This document shows, in pieces, positions 22,980 through 39,505 of a stretch of 64,000 bases of DNA. The position numbers and the translations under genes are program-made. The stretch is taken from the NCBI RefSeq assembly GCF_000058485.1, contig NC_008278.1:3280962-3344961 (forward strand). Direction: 5' to 3'. The stretch comes from Frankia alni ACN14a (GTDB taxonomy: Bacteria; Actinomycetota; Actinomycetes; Frankiales; Frankiaceae). How positions within the stretch are numbered: position 1 is the first letter of the stretch; each line of letters begins with the position of its first letter. The notes beneath the pieces were generated by a model. The model saw nothing but the letters and a program-made list of their open reading frames with translations. It was not told where the DNA came from and did not search any database.

Positions 22980-22995
22980 ACGAACATACGTTCGA
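22980..22995 (+). promoter_or_regulatory. SOS (LexA) box upstream of 13E12-type HNH gene
   Basis: The 16 bases read ACGAACATACGTTCGA. They match the actinobacterial LexA consensus TCGAAC-N4-GTTCGA at all but the first base, and contain the perfect core GAAC-N4-GTTC. The box lies 31 bases before the ATG of the HNH gene, a position where bound LexA would block transcription. Mycobacterial 13E12-repeat genes are known to carry such boxes. Confidence 0.8.
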
Positions 22996-23026: not shown

Positions 23027-24535
23027 ATGGTCTGGAATTCTGCCGGTGCCGGTGGGTCGTCTGCGCTGCTCGAAGGGGTCGCGGCAGTGTCCTCCGGGGT
23101 GGACGAGCTGAACGACGGCCGAGTGTGGGCGCTGTCGGATGCCGAGCTGGATGCCTGTCTGATTGACTGCACGGCGGTAATGACACGGCTAGCGGCGTTT
23201 CGGCTTCAGGTGGTCGCTGAGGTGCACGGCCGGGGTCTGGCGCGGCGGGTCGGTGCAAGCAGCACAGCGGCGTTGCTGCGGGAACGGCTGCGGCTGCGGG
23301 CGGCGGACGCCGGCCGTCTGGTTGATCTGGCCGTGGCCGTGGACGGCCCGCTGGCGGCCACCGGGCAGCGGCTGGCCGCGGGGGAGATCCGTGTGGAGCA
23401 GGCATTGGTGATCGCTGCGGGGATGCGGTCGCTGCCCGCCGAGGCGACCGCAGACGTGCGCCGGCGGGCGGAGGCGTTCCTGCTGCGGCAGGCCGATGAG
23501 TTCGATCCGACCGCGCTGGCCCGGCTGGCCCGTCACCTACGCGAGACCTTGACCTGGGTAGATCCCAGCCCCGGCGGCGATCCGCCCGAGTCGACTCCCG
23601 GCGGCGGGTCTGCCAGCCAGGGCGATGCGCCGGATGCCAGCGGGCAGTCCGGTGACGGAGAGTCAGGCGGTAGCGGCGCGAACAACGGCCAGCCCCACAA
23701 CCCCGCTGACCCCGCCGGCCCTGCCGATCCCGGGGGTCCCGGCGCCGATCCCGGCGGTCTGGCTGGTGGGGGTGGAGAGGATCCGGCGGGGCGGCGGGGG
23801 CTGTGGTTGTCGGAGTTGCCGGACGGGATGACCCGGATCAGCGGCGAGCTCGAGGCGGAAGCCGCCGCTCTGCTGCGCACCGCGCTGGACTCGCTGTCCG
23901 CACCCCGCCCCGCCTTCGACGGCACTCTCGACCCGCGTAACCCCGCCCGGCGGCGCGCCGACGCCCTCGTCGACCTGCTCGGCCGCCCCCTCGACACTGC
24001 CGCACTGCCCGTCACCGGCGGGATCCGCCCGCACCTGGCCGTGACCGTCCCCTGGGCGGCGCTGCTCGGCGGCTCTGGCCTGCCCGCGACCACCAGTTGG
24101 GGACAGCCCCTTTCCCGGGAGGTCCTTCGTCGCATCGCCTGTGACGCGTCGGTCCGTCGCATCATTCTCGACCCCGCCGGCGTCCCCCTCGACGTCGGCC
24201 GTGCGCACCGCACTGTCACCGCCGACATCCGCCAGGCACTGATCGCCCGGGACAACGGCTGCGCGTTTCCCGGCTGCGATCGTCCGGTAGGATGGTGCGA
24301 AGCGCATCATATCCGCCATTGGATTGACGGCGGTCATACTTCGCTGGACAACAGCGTCCTTCTCTGCGGTTATCACCACCGGACTGTCCACCATCAGGGT
24401 TGGACCGTTCAACTAGGCCCTGACCGGCGACCCGAATTCCTGCCTCCGGCCTGGATCGACCCCGACCGTACCCCCCGCCGGAATCCCTACACCCGCCACC
24501 CCCACTCCCTACTCTACGACGTCGCCGCCGGATGA
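23027..24535 (+). CDS. 13E12-repeat family protein: DUF222 domain plus HNH endonuclease
   Basis: A 502-aa protein. The N-terminal DUF222 region (about 25-185) is helical (LDACLIDCTAVMTRLAAFRL); a Gly/Pro/Asp-rich linker of about 60 residues follows. The C-terminal HNH nuclease (about 400-465) reads RDNGCAFPGC, then WCEAHHIRHW and LLCGYHHRTVHH, with the Cys pairs for zinc and the HH catalytic motif intact. Such proteins are multicopy in actinobacteria and are linked to DNA damage response or mobile DNA. The ATG at 23027 is preceded by a sequence with no strong ribosome site. An SOS box lies upstream. Confidence 0.9.
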   Translation: MVWNSAGAGGSSALLEGVAAVSSGVDELNDGRVWALSDAELDACLIDCTAVMTRLAAFRLQVVAEVHGRGLARRVGASSTAALLRERLRLRAADAGRLVDLAVAVDGPLAATGQRLAAGEIRVEQALVIAAGMRSLPAEATADVRRRAEAFLLRQADEFDPTALARLARHLRETLTWVDPSPGGDPPESTPGGGSASQGDAPDASGQSGDGESGGSGANNGQPHNPADPAGPADPGGPGADPGGLAGGGGEDPAGRRGLWLSELPDGMTRISGELEAEAAALLRTALDSLSAPRPAFDGTLDPRNPARRRADALVDLLGRPLDTAALPVTGGIRPHLAVTVPWAALLGGSGLPATTSWGQPLSREVLRRIACDASVRRIILDPAGVPLDVGRAHRTVTADIRQALIARDNGCAFPGCDRPVGWCEAHHIRHWIDGGHTSLDNSVLLCGYHHRTVHHQGWTVQLGPDRRPEFLPPAWIDPDRTPRRNPYTRHPHSLLYDVAAG

Positions 24536-39073: not shown

Positions 39074-39102
39074 TTGACAGGACGATCCACTTCCGCCAGG
39101 AT
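39074..39102 (+). promoter_or_regulatory. Promoter of the SOS-box small gene
   Basis: A perfect -35 TTGACA (39074-39079) is followed after 17 bases by CAGGAT (39097-39102), which keeps the essential A and T of the -10 element. Transcription would start close to 39109-39110, i.e. at or next to the ATG at 39110, implying a leaderless message. Confidence 0.55.
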
Positions 39103-39117
39103 CGAATGTATGTTCGA
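39102..39117 (+). promoter_or_regulatory. SOS (LexA) box over a start codon
   Basis: The 16 bases read TCGAATGTATGTTCGA, matching the LexA consensus TCGAAC-N4-GTTCGA at all but one position. The box directly abuts the proposed -10 element and covers the ATG at 39110. LexA bound here would block both promoter escape and the leaderless start. Confidence 0.72.
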
Positions 39118-39505
39118 TCTCTTCGGAGTCCGGCCCCGCCCTCGCCTCGCCCCCGAGCGCCGCACCGCGTCCAGGAGCCACCTGACGCCCAGGGGTCACG
39201 CCGCGCCCAGGGGCCGCGTCACGCCGGACGGTCGGATTCCGCCGCAGATGGTCGATTCCGGCGATGGCCGCCCGCTGTCGGACCGGGCCTCCTCCGGCCT
39301 CCCGCCGAGCGTGGCCCGGGTGGCGGCGCGGATGAGACTGTCCGCCGAGCTCCTCGCCGCCATCCTCGAGGTGGAGGGCCGATCCCGGGCCACCCTCGAC
39401 GACATGGAGCGCGCGGACGCCCTCGCCGACGTTCTGCTCGCCCGCCGCCGGCAGCGGGTCAGCAGCCATCGCCCCGAGCTCGCCCGGACCGGGCGTGGCG
39501 GCTGA
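39110..39505 (+). CDS. Small unknown protein under an SOS box
   Basis: A 131-aa protein that I do not recognise. It starts MFDLFGVRPRPRLAP, continues with a Pro/Arg/Gly-rich basic middle containing short repeats, and ends in a helical region (residues about 70-115: SVARVAARMRLSAELLAAIL, then TLDDMERADALADVLLARRR). No transmembrane segment or known domain is visible. The ATG at 39110 lies inside an SOS box and at the expected transcription start of a TTGACA promoter, so the gene should be induced by DNA damage. Its length and charge would allow a DNA- or protein-binding regulator. Confidence 0.55.
   Translation: MFDLFGVRPRPRLAPERRTASRSHLTPRGHAAPRGRVTPDGRIPPQMVDSGDGRPLSDRASSGLPPSVARVAARMRLSAELLAAILEVEGRSRATLDDMERADALADVLLARRRQRVSSHRPELARTGRGG

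Follow-up and report, generated by a model that had tools for sequence, protein, structure and literature searches.

A LexA-type box over the predicted leaderless start of a Frankiaceae gene for a small basic protein

The question raised by this locus of Frankia alni ACN14a, a member of a nitrogen-fixing group, is whether a short reading frame that begins inside a LexA-type box is a gene of the SOS type, and what its product might do in the cell. The locus lies in the stretch of 64,000 nt that was analysed here (the window), which is part of a single-contig genome of 7,497,934 bp.

Promoter, box and reading frame at the window locus

The original prediction, made from the sequence alone, had placed at this locus TTGACA and CAGGAT elements spaced by 17 nt, a box with one mismatch at 39102-39117 over an ATG at 39110, and an ORF of 131 aa, and all of these were re-found exactly (Table 1). 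The first T of the box is also the final base of the −10 element, and the start codon lies within its right half. A single stretch of DNA is here the end of the −10 element, the operator, the start codon and the N-terminus of the protein, which makes the locus a clear case of such an overlap. LexA-type boxes with at most one mismatch occur twice in the window, against 0.12 expected, and none of 100 shuffled versions reached two; a chance origin of the box was rejected. A simple sigma-70 scan called no promoter at the window gene, as CAGGAT matches TATAAT at 3 of 6 positions and the scan demands 4; the case for the promoter therefore rests on its conservation in the 23 full genes of the same type (type A). 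Longer ORFs that overlap the gene on the same or the opposite strand (frames of 269 and 1701 aa) were set aside, because conservation tracks the 131-aa frame.

Table 1. Features of the window locus and the type B gene of the same genome
Feature	Position	Strand	Remarks
−35 element TTGACA	39074-39079	+	present in 23/23 type A genes
Spacer GATC, role unassigned	39084-39087	+	at least 65% conserved per base; consensus TtgacaG...gatc, 23 promoters
−10 element CAGGAT	39097-39102	+	form xAxxxT in 23/23 type A genes
LexA/SOS-type box TCGAATGTATGTTCGA	39102-39117	+	one mismatch to TCGAACN4GTTCGA
Coding sequence, 131 aa, predicted leaderless, Frankiaceae type A protein	39110-39505	+	
N-terminal stretch MFDLFGVRPRPR	39110-39145	+	MFD codons inside the box
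Variable Pro/Arg-rich linker	39146-39298	+	low model confidence, probably disordered
Conserved C-terminal domain LPPSVARVAARMRLSAELLAAILEVEGRSRATLDDMERADALADVLLARRRQR	39299-39457	+	predicted helical hairpin, aa 66-89 and 96-120
Type B gene of the same genome (L037, L157)	G000:C1:4024125-4024514	minus	

Distribution and conservation of the two types

A search of 58 genomes with the protein gave matches in 31 of the 35 Frankiaceae genomes, and a profile run against 393 genomes of the class detected the family in 31 genomes, every one of them from Frankiaceae. The relatives belong to Frankia, Parafrankia, Pseudofrankia and Protofrankia. When GTDB contigs were scanned in a pattern-led way, 35 loci came back, in Frankiaceae records only. 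A match outside Frankiaceae, in genome G052, was weak (33% identity, with an internal stop) and was not counted; a second match in G003 (E 0.003) and a third in G011 (E 0.009) were dropped as spurious, and a weak match with an internal stop in G018 and, in the profile search, a weak match in G009 (E 7e-5) were left out. No relative outside Frankiaceae was confirmed in the collections searched. The proposal that the gene serves "these actinobacteria" thus holds for Frankiaceae, with 31 genomes, and fails for the wider class at the level of the 393 genomes profile-searched. A mobile-element origin was likewise set aside: 98 pattern matches in viral contigs yielded no confirmed relative, and none was confirmed in plasmids.

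The family was divided into types A and B, first by rank and box, and the split was then examined on a tree built only from the domain common to both, where the branch between the types has a support of 0.984. Type A comprises 23 full genes, including that of the window, in 23 Frankiaceae genomes and one per genome (L007-L029), and a 24th gene, in genome G007, is truncated by a contig edge. As a one-gene unit of the SOS type it occurs in three Frankiaceae genera. Every one of the 23 promoters has TTGACA, a spacer of 17 nt (16 genes) or 18 nt (7 genes), the xAxxxT form of the −10 element and a box over the start. The start codon in the right half of the box is ATG in 22 genes and GTG in one, and it follows the end of xAxxxT after 7 nt in all 23, which leaves no room for a ribosome-binding site. 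On average the box carries 1.86 bits of information per base, compared with 0.43 in the upstream flank, 0.97 in the remaining promoter bases and 1.03 in the coding sequence just downstream. The search for homologues that the original prediction had proposed thus returned 23 of 23 type A genes with the promoter, the box and a conserved frame, a comparison that lends strong support to its claim of a leaderless SOS-type gene.

The claim that the gene is "tightly repressed" fared less well, as position 6, a C in the consensus, is taken by another base in 21 of the 23 boxes (T in 19 and A in 2). The "mismatch" of the window box is therefore itself conserved, and it may tune the affinity for LexA or the region of the start; it could weaken one half-site.

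The protein is conserved along with its switch. In the hairpin domain of type A the differences at codon positions 1, 2 and 3 were 0.088, 0.046 and 0.388, and 4691 synonymous differences stood against 1640 non-synonymous ones over 13662 codon pairs, a pattern that indicates purifying selection on the type A protein; 36 columns are invariant across the 23 proteins, in an alignment that is shallow and drawn from a single bacterial family. Codon positions and promoter conservation together show, on the comparative level, that selection acts on both the protein and the switch, and by the same comparison the ORF at 39110-39505 was confirmed as a real gene.

Of the genes around it in the window, four were scanned and proved ordinary: they code for a SARP-type regulator and a polyketide cyclase-like protein, which are the immediate neighbours, and for FAD-binding and RPE65-type proteins. 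Across 17 named loci and the window, neighbours were mostly common only to close clades, although L096 and L104 share one and there may be further exceptions, so that the gene and its promoter appear to form a self-contained unit. The FAD protein next to the gene shows 92% identity in G011, a genome with type A, and 52-68% identity in four genomes that have no full type A gene; at this identity the four genomes probably do not present the same locus, and synteny provided no case of clean loss.

The composite pattern TTGACA-N22/23-TCGAAN6TTCGA gave 27 matches in 24 of the 35 Frankiaceae genomes, and its reversed control gave none. The matches correspond to 24 type A genes (among them the contig-cut gene of G007) and to three DUF222 genes, one in G008 and two in G007, and all of these genes read Met/Val-Phe-Asp/Glu out of the box. 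The pattern is absent from 11 of the 35 genomes, including G003 and G010, two single-contig genomes with type B only, and type A is therefore not indispensable.

Type B comprises 27 genes, one per genome (L030-L056), and has its last 55 aa in common with type A. It carries the same C-terminal domain as the window protein, with 42-61% identity over the aligned stretch, and like type A it is basic, has a variable linker and has a predicted start directly after a −10-like element, here TATCAC. The two types differ in their switch and in their N-terminus: no LexA box with at most two mismatches was found between −200 and +40 in any of the 27 type B genes, and the type B proteins begin with MALLHR and variants, whereas type A mostly begins with MFDL[LF]. 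The type B promoter is conserved as GTCAAGG..TTG ... TATCACTG, with variants, and the start was not found for one of the 27 genes. In the same genome as the window gene it reads GTCAAGGCGTTG-N18-GTATCACTG immediately before the ATG (G000:C1:4024125-4024680, minus strand), and this is the single match in that genome. Position 45 of the domain also separates the types: all 23 type A proteins have Val or Ala there, and all 27 type B proteins have Arg. The joint alignment held 39 of 50 rows (20 A and 19 B), and a smaller alignment held 21 rows, the first of them without its last 10 residues. From the wider spread of type B we infer that the duplication order was B before A. The type B neighbourhood (an acyltransferase, a zinc dehydrogenase, a PNPOx-like protein and a 330-aa protein with no Pfam match) gave no functional lead.

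LexA-type boxes elsewhere and known systems

The lexA gene of the same genome (L156; Pfam LexA_DNA_bind, 1.2e-28) has a one-mismatch box, ACGAACTCCCGTTCGA, upstream. The DUF222 genes L001, L071 and L131 of this genome, and possibly L006 and L136, read MFD or VFD from a LexA-type box. DUF222 and 13E12 are names of one family. These DUF222/HNH (13E12) genes have the box-over-start design in common with the window gene, and the three in two other Frankia genomes share TTGACA-N22/23-box. The likeness is confined to the promoter design, as the window protein has 131 aa and neither domain (DUF222 and HNH were both absent in the Pfam search).

For Mycobacterium tuberculosis, the available parts of two reports assign 13E12 genes to LexA control (PMC5005354, PMC4181829), and the extended SOS motif given there, MKWMTCGAAMRYWTGTTCGA, has a start-like WTG within the box (PMC4181829, PMC5005354). 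According to a further report, available in part, the lexA gene of M. tuberculosis is leaderless by experiment, its translation start being its transcription start (PMC2897130). That gene and the window gene both combine an SOS-type switch with a leaderless start; the proteins differ, and the start of the window gene is a predicted one. Since the same box-over-start occurs in DUF222 genes and the M. tuberculosis SOS motif fits, the regulatory design is, judged by sequence, known in kind. In the literature on Frankia with LexA or SOS, the available part of PMC8223512 contains no Frankia SOS regulon.

The second box of the window, ACGAACATACGTTCGA at 22980-22995, precedes a DUF222/HNH (13E12-type) gene at 23027-24535; it overlaps a −35-like TTCGAC, which is followed by a −10 element TAGGCT and a predicted leaderless ATG. 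This is an instance of a second layout, in which the right half of the box takes the place of the −35 element and is followed by 15-18 nt, TAnnnT, 4-8 nt and ATG or GTG. In scans for both arrangements, which covered the window and the box-site loci of the same genome, the second layout fitted nine loci (L002, L006, L135, L136, L137, L139, L140, L141 and the window gene at 23027-24535). Eight of these pass the DUF222 cut-off, among them L006 and L136, for which either start is possible, and L135 lies just below it. Judged by its sequence, the second layout seems to represent another class of leaderless promoter under LexA repression, separate from the box-over-start design.

LexA-type boxes were also observed at genes of other kinds. 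A Ku gene (L146:889-2007) has a one-mismatch box, GCGAACATGCGTTCGA, on the minus strand, with its predicted ATG in the middle of the box and not in the right half, and a gene in divergent orientation begins 242 nt away from this box; DNA end-joining may accordingly be under SOS control in Frankia. A DnaB-type helicase gene (L147:1-2073, minus strand), whose frame is open at the end of the locus and which has an intein-like insert of the LAGLIDADG/homing-endonuclease type, carries a one-mismatch box over a possible GTG start. At L134:2038-2889, an ORF matching the Amino acid:DNA transferase family (PF18724, E 9e-39) has its ATG inside a two-mismatch box. Such transferases are phage DNA-modification genes, so the L134 locus may be a prophage.

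The protein and its possible role

The statement of the original prediction that the product has no recognised domain was upheld, in that no accepted family was found in Pfam, NCBIfam or PHROGs. With Pfam the only match was a sub-threshold one to an Xre-like HTH (E 0.013; 16.2 bits against a cut-off of 25.8), and neither NCBIfam nor PHROGs gave a match at E≤1. The domain reads LPPSVARVAARTRLSAELLAAILxVDGRSRATLDDMERADALADVLLARRRQR. An AlphaFold2 model of the window protein has helices at 66-89 and 96-120, with a mean pLDDT of 94-97 at residues 71-110 and 85-86 on either side, low values elsewhere and a pTM of 0.48. A second model, made with residues 1-81 of the 91 of a type B protein, has a like hairpin (34-60 and 64-80) at lower confidence, with a pTM of 0.37. 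The protein is thus predicted to be a disordered arm followed by a helical hairpin. Fold comparison found nothing significant: for the first model the best Foldseek E was 0.52, with mostly histones among the matches, and a second look gave a best Z of 5.4, and the second model had one match, at E 5.9. A sequence search against solved structures returned three designed helical bundles only (best E 0.0081), which were taken as an effect of composition. In eight proteins (5 type A and 3 type B) the pI was 11.4-11.9; this is weak evidence, as genes of high G+C content are biased towards arginine. Across 50 family proteins the hydropathy mean over 19 residues never exceeded 1.5, so that no segment is hydrophobic enough for a membrane helix. 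The family is therefore, by sequence search, undescribed in Pfam, NCBIfam and PHROGs, and it appears restricted to Frankiaceae as far as searched.

Several readings of the locus compete. That box and ORF overlap by chance and no protein is made might be argued from the start being a predicted leaderless one and from the many overlapping ORFs on both strands of this G+C-rich region, but the coding-type codon-position pattern, the box in all 23 type A genes and the low number of boxes expected per window already largely refute this reading on comparative grounds, and we give it a negligible probability. A small DNA-binding regulator of the Xre-like HTH type, induced by damage and switching other genes, would suit the basic protein, its stretch RLSAELLAAIL, which we read as resembling the start of an HTH, and the weak profile similarity to the Xre-like HTH antitoxin (PF20432) at aa 58-98; two of 39 family members match this profile at E≤0.1, the best at 0.0055. 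However, the other 37 do not match it at E 0.1, the kleA_kleC profile was matched as weakly by three of the 39, and in both models the two-helix hairpin is unbroken between the would-be HTH helices. The window protein also differs from PF20432 in its neighbours, the SARP-type regulator and the polyketide-cyclase-like protein, with no toxin. This regulator is thus an unlikely explanation.

An SOS inhibitor that halts septation during DNA damage is rather improbable. In other bacteria small lineage-specific SOS proteins inhibit division, which counts for such a role, but YneA, SidA and ChiZ are membrane-spanning SOS division inhibitors and the hydropathy maximum of the 50 family proteins leaves no membrane-spanning segment. 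The suggestion of a cell-division regulator in the original prediction found no backing either among the four neighbouring genes that were scanned in the window, none of which is a division gene, or in an accepted Pfam, NCBIfam or PHROGs family. In favour of an inhibitor, Streptomyces has, in the part of PMC9380542 available, no clear homologues of known division inhibitors. The N-terminus suggests another role, in which MFDLF or MFDLL binds the sliding clamp, so that the induced protein would compete with polymerases or recruit them at stalled forks. A DnaE-type polymerase of the same genome (L158) has QFDLF near the position of the internal clamp motif; type A has MFDLF in 3 of 23 and MFDLL in 15 of 23 proteins, and type B, which has no SOS box, has the other N-terminus described above. 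The clamp motif is Q-x-[DS]-L-[FL], with the first Gln as its best-kept residue; in type A this position is Met, the remainder fits in 18 of 23 proteins, and five depart from MFDL[LF] (MFDAFG, MFEFLG, MFDASG, MFDRLA and MFDVMG). As type A lacks this crucial Gln and the box by itself dictates the codons of MFD, the likeness is only a lead, and clamp binding is decidedly improbable.

The reading that we prefer, at somewhat better than even probability, is an SOS-type Frankiaceae gene with its own conserved promoter and a leaderless start, whose product is a damage-induced basic adaptor that acts on nucleic acid or on the replication or repair machinery. Its regulatory part is strongly supported by comparison; the adaptor role and its partner are guessed from shape, charge and conservation. 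From what is established about LexA, we propose that a dimer bound to the box would cover the −10 element together with the start codon and the point where transcription begins, and would thereby keep polymerase from starting. After DNA damage, RecA-stimulated cleavage of LexA would free the promoter, and translation would then proceed on a leaderless mRNA whose first codon is the ATG at 39110. The product would be the DNA-damage-induced form of a Frankiaceae-specific protein, with a type B counterpart under a different promoter. Its basic, flexible N-terminal arm would be joined to the conserved hairpin, which probably pairs, docks on a conserved partner, or both; docking on a conserved partner is suggested by the highly conserved hairpin beside a fast-changing arm, and the protein would be an adaptor rather than an enzyme or a membrane protein.

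A bolder version, which we regard as a long shot, is that Frankiaceae built an SOS effector of their own, by bringing the gene of a family-specific hairpin protein under a 13E12-type LexA promoter, the box of which also codes for residues 1-3; the protein, with a Met-Phe-Asp-Leu-Leu/Phe tip like the QFDLF clamp peptide of DnaE, would act as a damage checkpoint at the replication fork. A study of LexA in Streptomyces venezuelae states, in the part available, that known checkpoint proteins have no clear Streptomyces homologues and that a mechanism is still unidentified (PMC9380542). How DNA damage is coupled to replication and division in filamentous actinobacteria is unsettled, and the window gene, with its exact promoter and defined domain, would offer a testable candidate in Frankia.
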